Assembly: GCA_020060235.1 (NCBI GenBank)
Contig: JAGVAO010000279.1
Location: 1 to 38,742, forward strand
Direction of reading: 5' to 3'
DNA: 38,742 bases
Origin: Anaerolineales bacterium
GTDB taxonomy: Bacteria; Chloroflexota; Anaerolineae; Anaerolineales; Villigracilaceae
Shown here: positions 3,160-37,267 of the stretch, piece by piece
How positions within the stretch are numbered: position 1 is the stretch's first letter
Layout: each line of letters starts with the position of its first letter
Notes under the pieces: generated by a model
The model's input: only the letters and a program-made list of their open reading frames with translations
Told to the model about the DNA's origin: nothing
The model's database searches: none
Translations under genes and position numbers: made by a program

Positions 3160-4281
3160 ATGAAAGAAGAATTACGCCCCATCAGACGCGTTGCCCTCAG
3201 CACCGGCGGAGGCGACGCGCCCGGCCTGAACGCGGTTATCCGCGCTGCCGTGCTTTCCGGCCTGAAACGCGGCTGGGAGATGTACGGTATCCGCGACGGT
3301 TTTCACGGCATGTTGACCCCCGAACAATATCCTGAGGGTGGAATTATCCGCCTGACCCGCGACCGCGTGCGCGGCATCACCCACCGGGGCGGCACCATCA
3401 TCGGCACCAGCAACCGCAACAACCCGATGCGCTACCCGATTATCCTGCCCGATGGCTCAAAGGAAGAAGTAGACCGCACCGACGAAATTGTGCGCGCCTT
3501 TGCCCTGCACGGCATCGACGCGCTGATTACCGTCGGCGGCGATGGCTCGCTGGAAATCGGCAATGTGCTCGCCAAGAAGGGACTGCGCGTGATTGCCGTC
3601 CCCAAGACGATTGACAACGACCTCGACAAAACCGATGTCACCTTCGGCTTCGACAGCGCGGTGGCTTTCGCAGCCGAAGGAATCGACCGCCTGCACTCGA
3701 CCGCCGCTTCGCACGGGCGTGTGATGGTGGTCGAGGTGATGGGCCGCTACGCTGGCTGGATTGCGCTCGAATCGGGAATTGCCGGTTCGGCGGACATCAT
3801 CCTGATTCCAGAAATTCCCTACGATTTGCGCAAAGTGTCGCAAAAAATCCTCGAGCGCGAACAATCGGGACGTTATTTTACAATCGTTGTGGTGGCTGAA
3901 GGAGCCAGACCTGTTGGAGGCAGTTCATCGGTCATCGACAAGGAAGCCGGGCGCGCCGAACGGCTGGGCGGCATCGGCGAAAAAGTCGCTGCTGAAATCC
4001 AGGAACTGACCGGCAAAGAGACCCGCGTGGTGGTGCTTGGCCACTTGCTGCGCGGCGGCACCCCGACCGCCTTCGACCGCATCATTGCCCTGCGTTTTGG
4101 CGCCGCCGCCGTGCGCGCGCTGGAGCAGGGGCTATCCAACGTCATGGTTGCCCTCGACGGCCAGCAGATGAAATTTGTCCCCATCACCGAGGCGCACGGG
4201 AAAATGAAATCCGTGCCGGTCGGCAGCGACATCATCCAGACCGCCAAAGACCTGGGAATCAGTTTCTGCGAACCGGAATAG
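3160..4281 (+). CDS. pfkA: 6-phosphofructokinase, mixed ATP/PPi active-site signature
   Basis: A 373-residue PfkA-family enzyme that phosphorylates fructose 6-phosphate to the 1,6-bisphosphate. Visible motifs are the N-terminal phosphate-binding GGGDAPGLNAVIR, GGDGS at 126-130, PKTIDND at 148-154 with catalytic Asp152, and MGRYAGW. By alignment with E. coli PfkA, position 104 is Gly (here G129), as in ATP enzymes, but position 124 is Lys (here K149), as in pyrophosphate enzymes. That G/K pair is known in actinobacterial-type PFKs, where the phosphate donor cannot be read from sequence alone. It is longer than E. coli PfkA (320 residues). A GGAG site precedes the ATG; the gene is monocistronic and faces the terminator at 4286-4327. 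Confidence 0.92.
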   Translation: MKEELRPIRRVALSTGGGDAPGLNAVIRAAVLSGLKRGWEMYGIRDGFHGMLTPEQYPEGGIIRLTRDRVRGITHRGGTIIGTSNRNNPMRYPIILPDGSKEEVDRTDEIVRAFALHGIDALITVGGDGSLEIGNVLAKKGLRVIAVPKTIDNDLDKTDVTFGFDSAVAFAAEGIDRLHSTAASHGRVMVVEVMGRYAGWIALESGIAGSADIILIPEIPYDLRKVSQKILEREQSGRYFTIVVVAEGARPVGGSSSVIDKEAGRAERLGGIGEKVAAEIQELTGKETRVVVLGHLLRGGTPTAFDRIIALRFGAAAVRALEQGLSNVMVALDGQQMKFVPITEAHGKMKSVPVGSDIIQTAKDLGISFCEPE

Positions 4282-6925: not shown

Positions 6926-7471
6926 TTATTTATCCTTGATTTGGTCCCATTCAGAGCGCAATACGCTCATCATGTGAACGTCAAAATATTTCCCGTTCTT
7001 GTAAACTGCCTGGCGCATACAGCCCTCGTGGACATAGCCGACCTTCTCATAGGCGCGGATGGCGCGCGGGTTGTCGGCATGGACGTGCAGGAAGATGCGG
7101 TTCAGGTTAAGGGTTTCAAATCCGTGCTGGAGCATCAGGCGGGTGGCCTCTGTGCCGTATCCCTGGTTCCAGGCGCTTTTGTCGCCAATCGAGATGCCAA
7201 ATTCGCTTTCGCGGTCAACGTTATTGATTTCGTGAAAACCGGTTGTGCCAATCATGCGCCACGAATCGCCCTCGCGGATTTCAATCACTAAAACCCGCTC
7301 GGCTGGTGGACGTTGTGCCATTCCGTCAAACCAGCGCTGCTCGTCTGCCATCGAGAGCGGCAGGCGCATCAGCAGCCCGGCGGTGACTTCAGGGTCGTTC
7401 ATCCATTCGACAAATTTGGGCAGGTCTTCGCGTTCGGCGGCCCGCAGGCGGATTCGTTTTCCGTAAATCAT
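6926..7471 (-). CDS. GNAT acetyltransferase, RimJ/RimL type
   Basis: 181 residues with the whole Acetyltransf_3 layout: RLRAAEREDLPKFVEW at the N-terminus, the beta4 segment (SEFGISIG), the acetyl-CoA loop WNQGYGTEATRLML, and the motif B region HADNPRAIRAYEKVGYVHEG. These enzymes transfer acetyl from acetyl-CoA to protein N-termini or small amines; the substrate cannot be told here. The ATG at 7471 overlaps the meaB stop by 4 nt (7468-7471). Confidence 0.88.
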   Translation of the reverse strand: MIYGKRIRLRAAEREDLPKFVEWMNDPEVTAGLLMRLPLSMADEQRWFDGMAQRPPAERVLVIEIREGDSWRMIGTTGFHEINNVDRESEFGISIGDKSAWNQGYGTEATRLMLQHGFETLNLNRIFLHVHADNPRAIRAYEKVGYVHEGCMRQAVYKNGKYFDVHMMSVLRSEWDQIKDK

Positions 7472-8475
7472 GATTTCATCCTTTGCAGCAATTGGCCGAT
7501 TGCCTCGCGCGGGGCGAGCCGTCGCGCCAGGGTCTCGGCGAACAGGCTGGAAACAACCTCGTCGGGGACTTGTTGTCGAAAATGTTCGACCAGTTTTTCG
7601 CGCAGCAGCAGGTCGAATTCGACTTCCAGGCGGGCTTCTTCACGCCGCGCCCAGTCCCCGCTTTCGCGCAGGTAGGCGGTGTGCAGGTCAATCGCTTCGA
7701 GCAGTTCAGGCAGGCCTTTGGCTTCGGTTGCCACCGTGCGCCGGATAAGCGGAATCCAGAGCAGGCGGCCGTTGTCTTCGATAGTATGATGCGCCGGGAC
7801 TTCAAACGCCTGGCCGTGATGCTGGAAGACCCGCCTGACCGGGTGCGCCAGTTCGAGCATGGTTTTCAGGGCGCGCTCGGTCGCATCCACGCCGGAGTGG
7901 TCGGCCTTGTTGATGACCAGGATGTCGGCGATTTCCAAAATCCCGGCCTTGATGGCCTGGATGTCGTCGCCCAGGCCGGGGGCCTCGACCACCAGGGTGG
8001 TGTGCGCCAGGCGGGCAATATCCACTTCCGACTGGCCCGCGCCGACCGTCTCGATGATAATCACATCGAACCCGGCGGCGTCGAAGACCTGCACCACGCC
8101 CGCAGTCGCCTGCGCCAGCCCGCCCAGCGAGCCGCGCGAAGCCATCGAGCGGATGAAGACGCCAGTGTCGCCCGAAAGGTCGCGCATCCGCACCCGGTCG
8201 CCGAGCACCGCCCCGCCCGTAAAAGGACTGGAGGGGTCGACCGCCACAATTGCTACTTTCTTCTCTTGCTTGCGGTAGTGCAGGGCCAGTTGGTTGACCA
8301 GCGACGATTTCCCCGTGCCGGGCGCGCCGGTGACACCCAACAAATGAGCCTTGCCGGTGTGTGGGAAAAGCGCATCCAACGCGGCAAGGCCCTCGGGTGT
8401 GGTGTTTTCCACACGCGAGAGCAAGCGCGCCAGCGCCAGCCGGTCGCCGTTCAGAACGGACTGGGCGAGATTCAT
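7468..8475 (-). CDS. meaB: Methylmalonyl-CoA mutase-associated GTPase MeaB (ArgK family)
   Basis: A 335-residue G3E-family GTPase that gates cobalamin loading and protects methylmalonyl-CoA mutase. The P-loop is GAPGTGKSS, switch-like ETVGAGQSEVDIA follows, and the base-specificity motif is NKAD. Length and order match MeaB throughout. It lies 3 nt downstream of the B12-binding mutase subunit, the expected functional partner, and overlaps the next gene by 4 nt. The catalytic large mutase subunit is not in the window. Confidence 0.95.
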   Translation of the reverse strand: MNLAQSVLNGDRLALARLLSRVENTTPEGLAALDALFPHTGKAHLLGVTGAPGTGKSSLVNQLALHYRKQEKKVAIVAVDPSSPFTGGAVLGDRVRMRDLSGDTGVFIRSMASRGSLGGLAQATAGVVQVFDAAGFDVIIIETVGAGQSEVDIARLAHTTLVVEAPGLGDDIQAIKAGILEIADILVINKADHSGVDATERALKTMLELAHPVRRVFQHHGQAFEVPAHHTIEDNGRLLWIPLIRRTVATEAKGLPELLEAIDLHTAYLRESGDWARREEARLEVEFDLLLREKLVEHFRQQVPDEVVSSLFAETLARRLAPREAIGQLLQRMKS

Positions 8476-8478
8476 GCT

Positions 8479-8883
8479 TTATCCTGCGGTCGGGATTGCG
8501 GAGCGAATATCGCTGATGACTTTTTCGGTTGAAGCGCCGGGGCCATAGACTTCCATGACGCCCATTTCTTTCAGGCGTGGCACGTCCTCATCGGGGATGA
8601 TGCCGCCCACAAAAACCTTGACATCCTGCTGGCCATTGGTCTTGAGCAGTTCGACCACGCGCGGCACCAGGGCCATATGCGCCCCGGATAGAATCGACAG
8701 GCCGACGGCGTCCACATCCTCCTGCAGGGCGGCTTCGGCTATCATTTCGGGGGTCTGGCGCAGGCCGGTGTAGATGACTTCCATCCCGGCGTCGCGCAGG
8801 GCGCGGGCGACAACTTTCGCGCCGCGGTCGTGCCCGTCCAGGCCGGGCTTGGCTACCAGCACACGGATTTTTCGTTCGGTCAT
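8479..8883 (-). CDS. Methylmalonyl-CoA mutase, stand-alone B12-binding subunit
   Basis: A 134-residue single-domain protein with the base-off/His-on cobalamin motif DGHDRG (DxHxxG), followed by GLSILSG and the GG of VFVGGIIP, the classical B12-binding fold of mutase C-termini. It pairs with a separate large subunit to isomerise methylmalonyl-CoA and succinyl-CoA. I chose the ATG at 8883 rather than 8895 because a GGAGG lies within the apparent 5-residue extension, correctly spaced for 8883. It is the first gene of the operon, directly before meaB. Confidence 0.92.
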
Positions 8884-8911
8884 TAAGGCCTCCATTGGGA
8901 ATTCTTTCTTG

Positions 8912-8917
8912 ATTATA
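8912..8917 (-). promoter_or_regulatory. Candidate -10 box for the mutase/meaB/prs/mutM operon
   Basis: The minus strand reads TATAAT here, 28 nt upstream of the ATG at 8883. No convincing -35 is present at 16-18 nt. Its position just before the first gene of a close-packed operon supports it. Confidence 0.35.
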
Positions 8918-8928
8918 CTATCAGCAGG

Positions 8929-8959
8929 TTACAATCTAGCCGCCTGAAACAGATATAAT
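8929..8959 (+). promoter_or_regulatory. Candidate promoter for the S9 peptidase operon
   Basis: A TATAAT at 8954-8959 is preceded by a weak TTACAA at 8929-8934 (19-nt spacer). Transcription from here would run through the inverted repeat at 8979-9074 before reaching the ATG at 9096. Confidence 0.3.
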
Positions 8960-8978
8960 TCATAAAAATCTGACCAAC

Positions 8979-9074
8979 AGACCTGACAGGTTTCACCAGG
9001 CAGCCAACCGGCAGAGACGCCTGCCAGCCACAGAAACCCGATAAGAAAGACATTTTTGAAAACCTGTCAGGTCT
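8979..9074. repeat. Perfect 15-bp inverted repeat spanning a 5' leader
   Basis: AGACCTGACAGGTTT (8979-8993) is matched exactly by its reverse complement at 9060-9074. Each arm also contains the near-palindrome ACCTGACAGGT. Between them is a smaller hairpin (GGCAG / CTGCC, 9010-9025), and a run of T follows the right arm. It lies immediately upstream of the S9 peptidase start and could be a folded leader, a terminator or a small non-autonomous repeat element. Confidence 0.65.
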
Positions 9075-9095
9075 TTTTTTAAAAAAGGACCCCCA

Positions 9096-10943
9096 ATGAC
9101 CCTAAAACACGCCCCCTTTGGCTTGTGGCCCTCGCCCATCACCCCCGAACTGCTCGGGATGCGCATCCGCCTCGAAGATGTGCAATTCGACAGCGATGGC
9201 GAAACCCTGGTATGGCAGGAAGGCCGCTCGGGCAAGCGCGTACTCGTTGTCCGCAAGCCCGGTGACGCTCCGCGTGACCTGACCGACGCCCTTAAAATCG
9301 GCGGCGGCATTGGCTATGGCGGCGGCGATTTCAGCGTCCGCAACGGACTGGTCGCTTTTGCCAGCGAGGGACGCCTGTACCGCCAAAGGCTGGAAGGCGA
9401 GCGTCCGCGTGCGATTACGCCCAAGTTTGGCGACCTGGCTTCGCCCGCCATCTCGCCCGACGGCTCGAAAATCCTGTTCGTGCATTCGTATGAGCGGCGC
9501 GACTGCCTGGCGCTGGTCGATAGCGAGGGCCTGCGCTGGCCCGTTCAACTGGCGACCGGTGCGGACTTTTACATGCAGCCCGCCTGGCATCCCGATGGGG
9601 AGCGCATCGCCTGGGTGGAATGGAATCACCCGCAGATGCCGTGGGATGGATGCCGCTTGGTGACGGCCCGATTAAATGGCGCGGAACTGACCGACATCCA
9701 GCATGTTTTTGGGGATGAAAATATCCCGGTCTTCCAACCCGAGTTTTCGACGGATGGCCGCTTTTTGGCTTTTCTTGCCAACGACGGCGAGTGGGACTCG
9801 CTGCGCGTCCTCGACCTGTCTACAAGCCAGGTGCGGATTCTGGTCGAGAACGCTTCCCTGCTCGACCCGGCCTGGGTGCAGGGACTGCGCCTTTTCGGCT
9901 GGGACGGCACGCGCCTGGTCTACGCCCGCAACGACAAGGGTTGGCGCACGCTCTGGGCGGTGGAGGCAACTGGAGGGGAGTCCGTTCCGATTGCAACCGC
10001 CCCCTACACCTGGTTCGGACAGGTAACGGTATCAGCCAGGGGCCAGGTCGCATTTATCGCTTCCGCCCCAAAAATCCCAACCCGGATTGTTTCGCTGGCC
10101 GAGGGCAACCTGCGCGTCGAGAAGTATTCCGAGGCCGAGAGCATCCCGGCGGGCTACCTGCCCGAGCCGCAGGCCATCGAGTGGCCCGCGCCGGATGGCA
10201 TGCCGGTGCATGGGCTGTATTACCCGCCAGCCAACCCGGCCTTTACGGATGAGGGCTTGCCGCCGGCGATGATTAACATTCACGGCGGCCCGACCTCGGC
10301 GCGGACGTCCAGTTACAACCCCGATGCGGCCTATTTCGCCAGCCGGGGATTCGCCTATGTCGAGGTCAATTACCGCGGCTCGACGGGTTATGGGCGTTCG
10401 TATATGCTGACCCTGCGCAAAAACTGGGGGCCTGTGGATGCCGAGGACGCGGTTGGCGCGGCGGGGGCGCTGGCGGCGCTCGGCCTCGCCGACCCGCAGC
10501 GGATGGTGATTATGGGCGGCTCGGCGGGTGGTTTTACGGTGCTGAATTGCCTGGTACATCATCCGGGCGTTTTCAAGGCCGGGGTGAACCTGTTTGGCGT
10601 CTCGAACCTGTTCGGCCTGGACGAAGACACCCACAAGTTCGAGGAGCGCTACAATATTTCGCTGGTCGGCGAACTGCCCGCCGCGGCGGAGCATTATAAA
10701 AAATGGTCGGCGGTTTTCCATGCCGACAAAATCCGCGACCCATTGGCGGTTTTCCAGGGTGCGGACGATAAGGTCGTGCTCCCGAACCAGTCCGAGAGCA
10801 TTGTCGAGGCCCTGCGGCGCAACAAAGTGCCGCACGTCTATCGCCTGTACGAGGGCGAAGGCCACGGCTGGCGCAAGAGCGAGACGATCGTGGATTATTA
10901 TGAGACGCTGAATAAGTTCTTGAAGGAATTTGTGCTGCTGTGA
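9096..10943 (+). CDS. S9 family prolyl oligopeptidase / acylaminoacyl-peptidase-like hydrolase
   Basis: A 615-residue two-domain serine peptidase. The N-terminal half has repeated short strands with SPDG and HPDG turns (TolB/WD40-like beta-propeller). The C-terminal half is an alpha/beta hydrolase with the oxyanion region NIHGGPTS, nucleophile motif GGSAGG (Ser476), GADDKV (Asp557) and EGEGHGW (His590), so the triad is complete. No signal peptide is visible, so it is probably cytosolic. It cleaves oligopeptides or acyl-peptides; substrate not predictable. Its stop overlaps the next start as GTGA at 10940-10943, beginning a five-gene coupled operon. Confidence 0.88.
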   Translation: MTLKHAPFGLWPSPITPELLGMRIRLEDVQFDSDGETLVWQEGRSGKRVLVVRKPGDAPRDLTDALKIGGGIGYGGGDFSVRNGLVAFASEGRLYRQRLEGERPRAITPKFGDLASPAISPDGSKILFVHSYERRDCLALVDSEGLRWPVQLATGADFYMQPAWHPDGERIAWVEWNHPQMPWDGCRLVTARLNGAELTDIQHVFGDENIPVFQPEFSTDGRFLAFLANDGEWDSLRVLDLSTSQVRILVENASLLDPAWVQGLRLFGWDGTRLVYARNDKGWRTLWAVEATGGESVPIATAPYTWFGQVTVSARGQVAFIASAPKIPTRIVSLAEGNLRVEKYSEAESIPAGYLPEPQAIEWPAPDGMPVHGLYYPPANPAFTDEGLPPAMINIHGGPTSARTSSYNPDAAYFASRGFAYVEVNYRGSTGYGRSYMLTLRKNWGPVDAEDAVGAAGALAALGLADPQRMVIMGGSAGGFTVLNCLVHHPGVFKAGVNLFGVSNLFGLDEDTHKFEERYNISLVGELPAAAEHYKKWSAVFHADKIRDPLAVFQGADDKVVLPNQSESIVEALRRNKVPHVYRLYEGEGHGWRKSETIVDYYETLNKFLKEFVLL

Positions 10944-11833
10944 CCTCCCCCTCAAAACCCTCCCGCTCCCTGCTCCTGAAAATCATCGGAACCCTGCTCT
11001 CGACCGGGCTGCTGGCCGCCCTCATCGCCTGGAGTTGGGACGATGTGGTGATTGCCCTCGGCAAAATTTCACTGCTCGAACTGCTGGCCGCCGCGGCCTT
11101 CATCTTCGCCTCGCGCCTGTTTACCGTGATGCGCTGGCATACCCTGCTGCGCTCCGGCGGCATTCCGATTGCGCTCAAGGACACGGCCCGCCTGACCTTT
11201 ACCGGCCTGTTTGCGACCAACTTCCTGCCCACCACCATCGGCGGCGACGTGGTGCGCCTGGCCGGGACAATGCAAATGGGCTACGACCGCGCCGTTTGCC
11301 TGGCCTCGCTGGCCGCCGACCGGCTGGTCAACATGACCGGCATGTCGCTGGCCGCCCCGCTCGGCATCTACCAAATCTTCCAACTTGGCCCGGCTGCCGC
11401 CCAGGCCGCCTTCCTGCCCGGCCTGTGGCGCAAGGGCTGGGATTTTGTCCGCCGCACCCTGGCTTCGCTGGCCCTGTGGCTCAAAAAACCGCTTTCCCTG
11501 TTGACCGCCCTCGGCTTCGCCTTTGCCCACATGTTGTGCATGTTTTCGGCCAACTACATTCTCGTCCATGCCCTGGGCGGCGAACTGGCCTTCTGGCGCG
11601 TGGTCGGCCTGTCGAGCCTGGCCTACTTTATCGGCCTCGCGCCGATTTCCATCAACGGCTACGGCTGGCAGGAACTGACCGTCTCGGCCCTGCTGGGCAC
11701 CCTCGGCGGGCTGGATGTTTCGGTCGCCGCCACCGTTCCGCTCATCAACCGGATGCTGCTCATGCTGGCCAGCACCCCCGGCGCATTGACCCTGCCCGGC
11801 ATCCTGGCCCAAATGGACAAATCAGACTCATGA
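10940..11833 (+). CDS. Flippase-like integral membrane protein (LPG synthase TM / UPF0104 family), copy 1
   Basis: 297 residues with about seven or eight hydrophobic segments. The family hallmarks are RWHTLLRSGG, FTGLFATNFLPTTIGGD and the Asp-Arg of SLAADRLVN. This family (AglD/YbhN-like, related to the membrane part of lysylphosphatidylglycerol synthase) is generally linked to lipid or lipid-linked glycan handling, with mechanism unsettled. The GTG start at 10940 overlaps the peptidase stop; the stop overlaps the next ATG (11830-11833). A second homologue lies at 13872 in the same operon. Confidence 0.85.
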   Translation: MTSPSKPSRSLLLKIIGTLLSTGLLAALIAWSWDDVVIALGKISLLELLAAAAFIFASRLFTVMRWHTLLRSGGIPIALKDTARLTFTGLFATNFLPTTIGGDVVRLAGTMQMGYDRAVCLASLAADRLVNMTGMSLAAPLGIYQIFQLGPAAAQAAFLPGLWRKGWDFVRRTLASLALWLKKPLSLLTALGFAFAHMLCMFSANYILVHALGGELAFWRVVGLSSLAYFIGLAPISINGYGWQELTVSALLGTLGGLDVSVAATVPLINRMLLMLASTPGALTLPGILAQMDKSDS

Positions 11834-32956: not shown

Positions 32957-32997
32957 ATAAAGAAATACCCTGGCAATCAACCAAGAGGAGAATGAGA

Positions 32998-34005
32998 ATG
33001 AAAGTCTTTCAATCTGTTTTAATCCTGACCCTGTTGTTTCTTTCTGCCTGCGGCGCTGCGCCTGCCACGCCTGCCGAGCCGCTGGAAACGGTGAAGTTGA
33101 AAATTTCCATGGGCCGGAATATGAGTTATGCGCCCTTCTACATTGCCCAGGAAGAAGGATATTTTGCCGAGCAGGGCCTTGAAGTGGAATTTGTGTTCCT
33201 GAACCGCGCAGGGGATGCGCTGGCCCTGCTGGTCGCCGGCGAAATTGATGCCTATACCGGCATTATGAGCGCGGGTGTGCTTAATATCATTTCCGAATCG
33301 AACGCGCTGAAAGTAGTTGCCGACCGGGGCCATGTTTCCCGGGAGAACTGCACCTATGAGGCGCTCCTGGTTCGTAAAGACTTGTATGACAGCGGTGAAG
33401 TGACCGGCCCTGGCGATTTAAAGGGGAAGTTATTGTCCATCAATGCAACCGGCAATTCGGGATATTTCCTGTCCAGTTACCTTGCCCAGGCTGGCCTGAC
33501 CTTGGAAGATGTGGAACTTACCGAAATGAATACCCAGGCTGAGATAGCGGCGTTTGCCGATAAGAGTATTGCCGTGGCTGCCGCAACCGACCCGGATTTG
33601 TCGCTCATGCTCAAAGAGGGGACATCGGTTATCCTTGCCCGCTCTGAAGAAGTAAAAGAATATGCCCAGACTGGCGTGGTTGCATTCGGTAAAAACCTGC
33701 TCGAAGACAGGCCCGATGTCGGCGCGCGCTTTCTGGCGGCTTACCTGAAAGGCATCCGGCAATATAATGAAGGCAAAACCGAACGTAACCTTGAAATTAT
33801 GAGCGTGGTTACCGAGACCTCGCCCGAAGAGCTTGCGGTGGCTTGCTGGCCTGGTATTGCAGACGATGGACAAATCAAATTTGAGGGCGTGGTTGGTTTC
33901 CAGGAATGGGCCTTGTCGCGCGGCCTGATTGACCAGTTGGTGACAGAGGAACAGTTCTGGGCGCCCAAACCGCTTGAAGATGCATATAAGTTGCTAGACA
34001 AGTAA
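32998..34005 (+). CDS. NMT1/THI5-like ABC transporter substrate-binding lipoprotein
   Basis: 335 residues from ATG 32998, correctly spaced from GAGGAG; the ATG at 32992 is too close. The signal peptide ends in lipobox LSAC with Cys18. The mature protein has the SsuA/THI5/NitT-TauT fold: NMSYAPFYIAQEEGYFAEQGLEV, VAGEIDAYTGI and LKGKLLSINATGNSG. It should capture a small organic molecule such as a pyrimidine precursor, sulfonate or aromatic acid. No permease or ATPase gene is adjacent, which is unusual. It is followed by a strong terminator. Confidence 0.88.
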   Translation: MKVFQSVLILTLLFLSACGAAPATPAEPLETVKLKISMGRNMSYAPFYIAQEEGYFAEQGLEVEFVFLNRAGDALALLVAGEIDAYTGIMSAGVLNIISESNALKVVADRGHVSRENCTYEALLVRKDLYDSGEVTGPGDLKGKLLSINATGNSGYFLSSYLAQAGLTLEDVELTEMNTQAEIAAFADKSIAVAAATDPDLSLMLKEGTSVILARSEEVKEYAQTGVVAFGKNLLEDRPDVGARFLAAYLKGIRQYNEGKTERNLEIMSVVTETSPEELAVACWPGIADDGQIKFEGVVGFQEWALSRGLIDQLVTEEQFWAPKPLEDAYKLLDK

Positions 34006-34022
34006 TTGAGTTTGAGCAAAAC

Positions 34023-34082
34023 CGCGGGGAGGACTGGCATGACGATTTTTCATCATGGACAATCCTCCCCGCGTTGTTTTAT
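34023..34082 (+). terminator. Intrinsic terminator after the binding-protein gene
   Basis: CGCGGGGAGGA (34023-34033) pairs perfectly with TCCTCCCCGCG (34063-34073), followed by TTGTTTTATT. It sits only 16 nt before the next start codon, so the A-T-TE gene would be expressed by partial read-through or from a promoter I cannot see. Confidence 0.8.
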
Positions 34083-34097
34083 TGAAGGGAATACGCA

Positions 34098-36740
34098 TTG
34101 AATCTCGTGACCAATCCTTACACTAAAGAGGAACTATTGGGTAATTTTTTTGGCTGTGTTGAAAAAATTGCCCAGGAATTTAGTCGAAAACCCTTTATCG
34201 TAAACCGGCAGGGTACGCTTACCTTTGGCGAAAACCTTCAGCATGCCAACCAGGTTGCCAATGCAATTACCCGTCAATATGGCTTTAGGCAGGTGGGCGT
34301 TGGCCTGTTTCTCGAAGACCCTCGGGATGTTTTCCCCGCAATGATAGGGATTCTCAAGTCGGGTAACTACATTATTCCATTCGGGATTGATTTTCCGGCG
34401 GCCACGTTGACGGCCATGTGCCGCGACGCGAACATTCAACTTATTTTGACGCGGCAAGCGTACAGGGAAAAAGCCTCGTTTTTCAAGGAAATGAACCTGC
34501 CTGTGTTGTCGCTCGAGGAGATTGAGGCCACATTCGATGGGCAGTCTGCCCCGACTGTTCCTTACAAGCCGCAGGATATTGTCCAGATTCTTTTTACTTC
34601 GGGGTCGACCGGCGCGCCCAAGGGGGCGGTGGAAGATTACCGCTACCTGACGAGGGCGGCACTCCAGCGTACAGAGATGTCGGGGCCGGATGCCAACTCG
34701 AACTCACGCTACCTGCGACTTTCCACCTTTACTTTTTCCGGAACCCACACCCAGGTATTCGCATCGCTGCTCGATGGTTCTTCCGTCCATTTTTATAGCC
34801 TGAAGGCTGACGGGTTGGCCGGCTTGCCGACCTGGATACGTGACCAGGCCATTACCGATTACAGTTCTGCTGTGACCATCTTTCGCAGCCTGGTTGGCAT
34901 CCTGAAACGTGATGAAGTCTTCCCGAGCGTCAAACATTTTGCCCTTTCCGGCGAGCGCAGGGTGAGTACGGACATAGAAGCGATACGCAGGCATTTCCCG
35001 GCCATCACCTACATTCGGCTGGGGTATGGGTCGACGGAGTTGCCGCGGGTTTCTTCCACCCGTTATCCGGTCGATAGCGAACTTTTCAACCAGCCGCACC
35101 TGCCCTGCGGAAAGCCCACCGAGGATGTCAAAATCCTGATTTGGGATGAAGAAGGCATGGAATTGCCGATTGGCGCAGAGGGCGAAATTGTTGTTTACGG
35201 GGATTCTATGGCGAGGGGTTACATCAACAACCCCGAACTTACCCGCCAGCGGTTCATTGCTGACCCGCACAACGAAGGCTGGCAATATTTCAAAACCGGC
35301 GACCTCGGCAAACTCCTGCCCGATGGGCAGCTGCTTGTCCTCGGGCGCGCGGACAACATGGTCAAAATCAATGGCGTGCGTATCGAATTGGATGCGCTGG
35401 AAACGCACCTGCTTAAATATCCCGGGGTGGTGCAGGTGGCTTCGGCTCCCTTCGACACGCCTCATGGGACCAAAAAACTGGCCTGCTATTATGTGGCGGA
35501 AGATGGAATCCAAATCCCGGTTTCCGATTTGCGCAAGCATCTCGCCCAGAATTTGCCCAGGCATCTCTTGCCCCATTTCCTGATTCCGCTGGACACCATG
35601 CCCATGACTGGCAGCGGAAAGGTGGCCCGGACGCTGCTCCCGCCTCCTCAGTTCAAGCGGCCCAATTTGCCCTATCCATACAGGGAGCCGGGCACCGAAC
35701 TGGAAAAGAAACTGGTCAAAATTTGGGAGGAAGAAATCGGCATCACCGGGATAGGTGTTGACGACGATTTTTTCGACGTGGGCGGCGATTCACTCATTGG
35801 GGTCATCCTGTTTGCCAGGATTGAAGACGTTTTGCAGAAGAAATTACCGGTATCTGTGCTGCTTACCGCTTCGACGGTCAGGAAACAGGCCGCCCTGATT
35901 TTAGGCGATGAACAAAGTAACGCTTTCTCTGCGGTTATCCCCATCCAACCGGGCAAGGAAGGCCGCGCCCCCTTGTTTTTTATCCCCGGCAAGGGCGGTT
36001 ACCCGGTACGGGTCCGCCACCTTGCCAAAGGCATGGATGGTGACACGCCGATTTTTGCCTTGCAGGGATTGATGACCCGCAAAATGAAAACCGAATACAC
36101 CATTGAATCAGTGGCATCTTTTTACCTGAACGAAATTCGCAAGGTTGTCCCTAATGGCCCGTATTTGTTTGTTGGCGAGTCGATGGGCGGCAAGATTGCC
36201 CTGGAGATGGCCCAACAACTGCTTAAGTTGGGACAGCAAACGCCCCTGCTTGTTATGTTGGATACTTTCTACACCGCCAACTGGCGTAAGCGCGGCGGTT
36301 CTGATTATTTCAGGAAACTCAGGTTCTACGGTATGCTGTTAAGAAAACACCTGACCATTCTCTGGAAATCCGACAGGCGTGGCAGGCAGGAATATTTCAG
36401 TTTCTATGGCAATCTTTTGCGGGAAAAAATCCGCAAGTGGCGCTCAGGCAAAAACCCCCTGCAACCGGCTTTGCCCGACGAACAGCGATTGCTGGAAAAG
36501 AAAAACCTCCAGGCCGATGCGGCCTACCAGCCCAGGCCCTACCCGGGCAAGGTGGTGTACGTCAAGGCGACGCGCGGGAAGGTCAACGACCTGCCTGCCA
36601 ACGGCTGGGAAACCGCCCAACTCGGCGGCCTGGATGTGTACGCGCTGGATTGTTATCACGGCAGTATTTTGTTCGAGCCAGCGGTGGGGCAGTTGGCTGA
36701 AATTATCCAGGGCAAGATAAACGAGTTGCAGGATACATAA
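34098..36740 (+). CDS. Adenylation-carrier-thioesterase (A-T-TE) NRPS-like enzyme
   Basis: 880 residues from TTG 34098 with AAGGGA 7 nt upstream. The adenylation domain (about 20-515) has ILFTSGSTGAPKGA, YGSTE, YFKTGDLG, RADNMVKINGVRIE and the late GSGKVAR lysine. The carrier domain has FFDVGGDSL (Ser near 564) for phosphopantetheine. The thioesterase (about 615-875) has GESMGG (Ser near 694), LDTF and a late YHG histidine. It should activate an acid as AMP-ester, hold it as thioester and release or cyclise it. There is no condensation domain. The position that is Asp235 in amino-acid-activating domains appears to be Ser (FTFSGTHTQVFASLL), suggesting a substrate without an alpha-amino group. 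Confidence 0.9.
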   Translation: MNLVTNPYTKEELLGNFFGCVEKIAQEFSRKPFIVNRQGTLTFGENLQHANQVANAITRQYGFRQVGVGLFLEDPRDVFPAMIGILKSGNYIIPFGIDFPAATLTAMCRDANIQLILTRQAYREKASFFKEMNLPVLSLEEIEATFDGQSAPTVPYKPQDIVQILFTSGSTGAPKGAVEDYRYLTRAALQRTEMSGPDANSNSRYLRLSTFTFSGTHTQVFASLLDGSSVHFYSLKADGLAGLPTWIRDQAITDYSSAVTIFRSLVGILKRDEVFPSVKHFALSGERRVSTDIEAIRRHFPAITYIRLGYGSTELPRVSSTRYPVDSELFNQPHLPCGKPTEDVKILIWDEEGMELPIGAEGEIVVYGDSMARGYINNPELTRQRFIADPHNEGWQYFKTGDLGKLLPDGQLLVLGRADNMVKINGVRIELDALETHLLKYPGVVQVASAPFDTPHGTKKLACYYVAEDGIQIPVSDLRKHLAQNLPRHLLPHFLIPLDTMPMTGSGKVARTLLPPPQFKRPNLPYPYREPGTELEKKLVKIWEEEIGITGIGVDDDFFDVGGDSLIGVILFARIEDVLQKKLPVSVLLTASTVRKQAALILGDEQSNAFSAVIPIQPGKEGRAPLFFIPGKGGYPVRVRHLAKGMDGDTPIFALQGLMTRKMKTEYTIESVASFYLNEIRKVVPNGPYLFVGESMGGKIALEMAQQLLKLGQQTPLLVMLDTFYTANWRKRGGSDYFRKLRFYGMLLRKHLTILWKSDRRGRQEYFSFYGNLLREKIRKWRSGKNPLQPALPDEQRLLEKKNLQADAAYQPRPYPGKVVYVKATRGKVNDLPANGWETAQLGGLDVYALDCYHGSILFEPAVGQLAEIIQGKINELQDT

Positions 36741-36766
36741 ATTTATCCTCGGAAGGAAAGCCCTTG

Positions 36767-37267
36767 ATGCCGAGCGAAGGAAGTGTTGAAGAAGCAATCA
36801 GGCTTTTGGAATTGGACAGTCTCTCCGCCCAAAAATGGGCCAGGGATGGAAAAATCGAAGCGTGGGTTCACAAATATCTTTTGAGCGGCCTGGGGGGCGC
36901 GACAAACCCGCAATTTTCAGAAGGCCTGAAGCGCGAAAAACGCTGGTGGAACGGCCCGCTGGAACTTCCGCTGGCAGGTTTGTTTCCGGCGGTCGGGCCG
37001 GAACCCGGTATGGAATATGTGGTTGACAGGGATGGCTGGCGCGCCCGCACCCGAAAACTGGCGGCCTCGTTTTCCAGTCCCTTGTCCCTGCCCCCGCTGA
37101 TTGTCGAATATCGGACTGGCGTGTTGAGTGTGCGCGATGGAAACACGCGATACGGCGCGATGCAGCTGCTCGGCTGGCAGGCCTGCTGGGTTGTCGTCTG
37201 GTACAACACCAGGGACGATTATGACGGGCACAACAAAATTCTCTTGGGGCGCAAAACCGCCCCGTAA
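36767..37267 (+). CDS. ParB/sulfiredoxin-like small protein
   Basis: 166 residues from ATG 36767 (GGAAGG upstream; TTG 36764 also possible). The C-terminal half has a ParB/Srx-like core: LPPLIVEYRTGVLSVRDGNTRYGAMQLLG, matching the box seen as DGxxRxxAxxxLG. The N-terminal half has no motif I know. ParB-fold proteins include nucleases, partition CTPases and small-molecule kinases such as SbnI/SerK. Lying 26 nt behind an A-T-TE gene, a biosynthetic role is plausible but unproven. Confidence 0.7.
   Translation: MPSEGSVEEAIRLLELDSLSAQKWARDGKIEAWVHKYLLSGLGGATNPQFSEGLKREKRWWNGPLELPLAGLFPAVGPEPGMEYVVDRDGWRARTRKLAASFSSPLSLPPLIVEYRTGVLSVRDGNTRYGAMQLLGWQACWVVVWYNTRDDYDGHNKILLGRKTAP

Follow-up and report, generated by a model that had tools for sequence, protein, structure and literature searches.

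Gene content of the locus

The window, i.e. the whole stretch of DNA that was analysed, corresponds to one entire contig (38.7 kb) from a draft genome of 4.0 Mb with 96.9% completeness. The named close relatives of this genome are metagenome-assembled genomes of Chloroflexi/Anaerolineae. The features under study all lie on the forward strand:

32992..34005, +, NMT1/SsuA-type substrate-binding lipoprotein (SBP), 337 aa (Pfam NMT1, lipobox, AF2 model, synteny in relatives)
34023..34083, +, RNA hairpin between the SBP and A-T-TE genes (MFE -36.5, z -5.0 against shuffles)
34098..36740, +, single-module NRPS-like enzyme with adenylation (A), thiolation (T) and thioesterase (TE) domains (A-T-TE), 880 aa (Pfam domains; relatives)
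34164..35624, +, adenylation domain (alignment to GrsA, numbering per PDB 1AMU)
35709..35903, +, thiolation domain with Ser565 in GGDSL (Pfam PP-binding, residues 538-601)
35970..36713, +, type I thioesterase domain with Ser695 (GESMG), Asp722 and His854 (Pfam Thioesterase, residues 625-872)
36767..37267, +, 166-aa protein with a weak ParB-like C-terminal motif, DGNTRYGAMQLLGW (PHROGs matches)

The three genes reported in the initial annotation are real open reading frames and lie where that annotation placed them. The hairpin is probably a terminator or attenuator, and its strength makes separate transcription of the SBP and A-T-TE genes possible. It was not picked up by a simple terminator scan, for which its loop is too long. 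In the closest relatives the gap between the two genes measures only 12-30 bases, in contrast to the strong hairpin of the window.

The binding lipoprotein

The SBP matched the NMT1 family (PF09084, E 1e-19) and carries the lipobox LSAC. Its AF2 model (pLDDT 92) was nearest to the solved folds of TauA, SsuA, ThiY and Thi5, and more weakly resembled PqqT. The protein thus has the NMT1 domain, the SsuA/TauA-like fold and the lipoprotein signal of its class. Because the ligands of these five proteins are small, polar and chemically diverse, the fold matches cannot name the ligand of the SBP. Two cysteines, Cys 120 and Cys 285 in the numbering of the window SBP, were invariant in 25 family members and perhaps form a disulfide.

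A tblastn search of the window found no trace of an ABC ATPase or permease, as the initial annotation had noted for the permease. Close homologues were also absent elsewhere in the genome, where the best permease was 29% identical and came from contig C43. The cognate ATPase and permease that define a NitT/TauT importer are present in relatives, whereas the window copy has lost both and kept the binding protein. Hence, the window SBP would have to borrow another NitT/TauT importer, or it may no longer serve transport.

Domains and specificity code of the A-T-TE enzyme

Translation of the A-T-TE starts at a TTG codon (34098) preceded by GAAGGGA. All three domains were recognised by Pfam (AMP-binding, E 2e-45; PP-binding, E 6e-13; thioesterase, E 7e-17), and their motifs are complete: TSGSTG in A3, TGD in A7, the A10 Lys, Ser565 of the T domain and the TE triad Ser695/Asp722/His854, which was invariant across the family alignment. 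As the initial annotation had it, the enzyme lacks a condensation domain; Pfam found none in the protein, and none occurs anywhere in the genome assembly. The A-T-TE therefore stands outside any NRPS assembly line. The only phosphopantetheinyl transferase found in the genome was of the AcpS type. A genome search for the Sfp type found none, which may be explained by the 3% that the assembly misses, and loading of the T domain is hence a presumption.

The A domain was also said to lack the Asp that binds alpha-amino groups, and this was borne out by the alignment to GrsA, the numbering of which was verified against PDB 1AMU. Motif A4 aligned without gaps, and the alignment placed Ser at 235 and Lys at 517. 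The full code reads S-G-T-S-A-S-G-R-V-K (positions 235, 236, 239, 278, 299, 301, 322, 330, 331 and 517). A further mark had gone unnoticed: in motif A5 (YGPTE), Ser takes the place of the conserved Pro at position 325. Both changes have precedents, since StsA, an alpha-keto acid domain, lost the alpha-amino Asp as well as the A5 Pro, and hydroxy-acid A domains carry Ala or Gly at position 235 (PMC11253843). Furthermore, A-T-TE enzymes without Asp235 are known that dimerise aromatic alpha-keto acids, and fungal enzymes of this keto-acid dimerising kind have Val as the first code position (PMC10316625). A DhbE-type specificity for aryl acids is unlikely, as the A5 motif is STE-like rather than MAEGL-like. 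The sequence suggests that the acid activated by the window enzyme is not an ordinary amino acid.

Neither Asp235 nor Pro325 occurred in any of the 23 A domains linked to an SBP (counted in a MAFFT alignment; an automatic count placed just 14 of the 23 onto the profile columns). Among the other A domains of the fetched loci, Asp235 was present in 49 of 80 and Pro325 in 41 of 80; the loss of Pro325 was also seen in unlinked standalone A-T-TEs of the sampled loci and is not specific to linked enzymes. The first code residue of the linked A domains was S, A, G, P or E, and the pocket varied strongly from locus to locus, so that one substrate cannot fit all.

The third protein

The best start of the third gene is the ATG at 36767, 26 bases after the A-T-TE gene. 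Its product gave weak matches to ParB-like PHROGs families (E 0.08-0.5), and Pfam returned no ParB match even at E<10. With few homologues to build on, the predicted fold (pLDDT 44) was too poor for use. A homologue (72% identical) was found in one of 152 family genomes. It lies at 3458-3955 on the minus strand of locus L041, flanked by an aminotransferase-like gene on one side and an unknown gene of 328 aa on the other, with no A-T-TE beside it.

Linkage of A-T-TE genes with binding proteins and importers

A locus search with the single A-T-TE as query yielded no related loci, and a search with a four-member A-T-TE alignment retrieved four true relatives together with generic NRPS matches. 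Relatives of the window enzyme occur in genomes G075 (54% identity), G019 (48%) and G087 (39%). These and more distant A-T-TEs directly adjoin an NMT1-type SBP, mostly together with an ABC ATPase and a permease, and the adjoining SBPs are 37-51% identical to that of the window. Hence, the lipoprotein is not the orphan neighbour described initially, but a conserved partner across many Chloroflexota genomes.

All four genes were found together at six loci (L042, L044, L045, L046, L051 and L107), of which L051 is a second A-T-TE locus in the window's own genome, on contig C43. Locus L043 holds an A-T-TE with an SBP, plus a second copy with all four genes that is cut by the contig end. Of the two copies in G019, the first has the SBP only. 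The arrangement of the window, an intact SBP and A-T-TE without ATPase or permease, recurred in L140, in L145 and, within L043, in the first of its two copies. In several genera, a second type of importer with A-T-TE is flanked by glyS and dnaG (L051, 4747-18354; L046; L050); in L050, from genome G028, the A-T-TE is broken into pieces and the importer is gone.

The reverse search, with an SBP profile, gave 25 strong hits (at least 150 bits) at 16 loci in 12 genomes. An A-T gene lay within about 5 kb at 16 of the 16 loci with a window-type SBP above this cut, which was taken from the same search that it sums up. The control set came from a phylum-wide search with a wider SBP profile, which mostly caught unlinked NMT1 SBPs; here, none of 19 loci with other NMT1-family SBPs had an A-T gene nearby (Fisher p 2e-10). 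Distances among SBPs and among A-T-TEs covaried over 18 pairs (Mantel r 0.70, p 1e-4), in part through shared ancestry. In the A-domain tree, all linked A domains, with L144 counted as linked, fell into one well-supported part (100/100), apart from ordinary NRPS A domains. The same part also holds three unlinked A-T-TEs with no importer adjoining (L047, L108 and L111).

A second group of standalone A-T-TEs (L109, L112, L113, L115 and L116) has no importer and represents an uncharacterised enzyme type of Anaerolineae. Its code is nearly constant (ALVRDVIIGV/AVVRDVVIGV at positions 235, 236, 238, 239, 278, 299, 301, 322, 330 and 331).

Gene fusion and domain swap

In one metagenome-assembled genome, Anaerolineaceae bacterium BL5_bin.16 (G742, locus L054), the A-T-TE runs in frame into an ABC ATPase. 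The fusion, known from this genome only, spans 6974-10426 and encodes 1150 aa; seven SBPs and a second A-T-TE lie beside it. In four linked A-T proteins, the TE is swapped for an LpxL/HtrB-like acyltransferase, and the same SBPs adjoin: L147 (6753-9644), L148 (2-2140), L149 (2277-3482) and L162 (genome G977, 8181-11681). Three of these domains matched PF03279, and that of L147 was assigned via homology to L149. The L162 protein begins with a methyltransferase domain. An LpxL-type acyltransferase as last step is confined to these four proteins; the window enzyme has a TE in this place. Since the importer is kept although the release domain changes, its ligand is more likely the substrate of the A domain than the product.

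Proposed function of the module

In the reading to which we give an about even chance, Chloroflexota have a module that couples import to the activation of an acid, with uptake, loading of the acid by A-T and release by the TE, and the SBP and A-T-TE of the window are what is left of one such module. A complete module comprises an ABC ATPase, a permease, at least one NMT1/TauT-type lipoprotein and one A-T-TE or A-T-acyltransferase. The gene content, the linkage, the residue changes, the fusion and the domain swap are observed, whereas the identity of imported ligand and A-domain substrate, the product and the direction are inferred as follows. The lipoprotein would capture a small carboxylic acid without an alpha-amino group, be it a keto acid, a hydroxy acid or another acyl acid, for transport into the cell by the ABC importer. 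There, the A domain would adenylate the imported acid, and the T domain would keep it as a thioester. Finally, the TE would free the acyl group, whether by hydrolysis, by dimerisation or by passing it to an acceptor, which would give a small non-peptide product; in the acyltransferase versions, release or transfer would fall to the acyltransferase instead. More tentatively, and with a clearly lower probability, the importer may be physically and functionally coupled to the mini-NRPS, such that incoming acids are covalently trapped on the carrier and converted at once, in a manner resembling group translocation, while SBPs and A pockets co-diversify.

Siderophore systems classically pair a synthetase with uptake genes, and the arrangement reported here would fit that pattern. 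The A-T-TE might accordingly make a small secreted molecule from an internal precursor, for instance a dimerised keto acid, which the SBP and importer would retrieve. The ability of A-T-TEs without Asp235 to dimerise aromatic alpha-keto acids (PMC10316625) is consistent with this, as is the ratio of seven SBPs to two synthetases in L136/L054, as if several related products were taken up. However, the cassettes contain no exporter or precursor enzyme, their SBPs are of the NMT1/TauT type rather than the usual siderophore class, and position 235 is not Val as in the fungal enzymes. Moreover, the versions that end in an LpxL-like domain would hand the group on to an acceptor instead of setting it free. 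We therefore consider retrieval of a secreted product a possible but rather unlikely explanation.

The putative acyltransferases, assigned by domain match in four linked loci, and the glycosyltransferase or sulfotransferase genes that lie nearby in L137, L147 and L162 point to another option, in which the TE or LpxL-like domain would move the imported, A-T-loaded acid to a glycan or lipid of the cell envelope in the style of DltA/DltC or AlmE/AlmF/AlmG. Yet a TE forms the end of the window enzyme and of most linked proteins, and the window pair has no glycan genes next to it, which makes envelope acylation improbable. It is still less probable that the window genes lie side by side by chance, or are decaying leftovers, and do not act together in this genome. 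The missing ATPase and permease, the hairpin that makes separate transcription of the two genes likely, and the broken A-T-TE of G028 would agree with decay. In contrast, the SBP and A-T-TE of the window are intact, with no catalytic or binding feature missing, and correspond to a conserved pair; L140, L145 and L043 (in its first copy) also hold intact pairs without ATPase or permease. The pathway proposed in the initial annotation, in which the A-T-TE acts with a ParB-like small-molecule kinase of the SbnI/SerK type and the lipoprotein is unrelated, is very improbable despite the weak ParB-like matches and a 26-base gap that suggests co-transcription, because the pair is not conserved, the sole homologue among the 152 genomes lacking an A-T-TE and all A-T-TE relatives lacking the protein.

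The import-coupled module is a new, recurrent combination of known parts. No description of an importer with an A-T-TE was found in the literature searched, which had most subscription journals outside its scope; this agrees with the initial suggestion of a small unexplored metabolite pathway, insofar as the pathway appears to be of a metabolite type. NRPS-type enzymes are usually regarded as makers of secreted products. A recurrent module of single-module synthetase and importer, linked in one case even through a gene fusion, points to an unrecognised way in which the little-cultured phylum Chloroflexota uses acids that it imports. The module predicts that the lipoprotein binds the same small acid that the enzyme adenylates, and its many paired variants of SBP and A domain offer a natural set from which to learn the substrate codes of non-amino-acid A domains.

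Comparison with known systems

The A-T-TE order, without a C domain and without Asp235, is shared with RalA, EchA and the fungal quinone and furanone synthetases. The code of these enzymes starts with Val, whereas window-type enzymes have S, A, G, P or E and are paired with an ABC importer. StsA of cereulide biosynthesis resembles the window A domain in that neither has the alpha-amino Asp or the A5 Pro; however, it is part of an A-KR-T module that initiates an assembly line, and it carries Ile and Met where the window enzyme has Ser and Ser.

NRPS siderophore clusters likewise combine an NRPS-type enzyme with ABC uptake genes, but the module described here has one module, no C domain, an NMT1-type SBP and no exporter. 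The AlmEFG and Dlt systems also use an adenylation domain and a carrier, and an LpxL-like acyltransferase is shared with the four relatives. Unlike them, our module has a single fused chain, a non-amino-acid A domain and an attached importer, and in the window a TE. Finally, the NitT/TauT importers TauABC, SsuABC and ThiXYZ have the SBP fold, ATPase type and permease type in common with the module, whereas the SBPs of the module form a distinct subclade with two invariant cysteines and are tied to A-T genes; in one case, the ATPase is fused to an A-T-TE.
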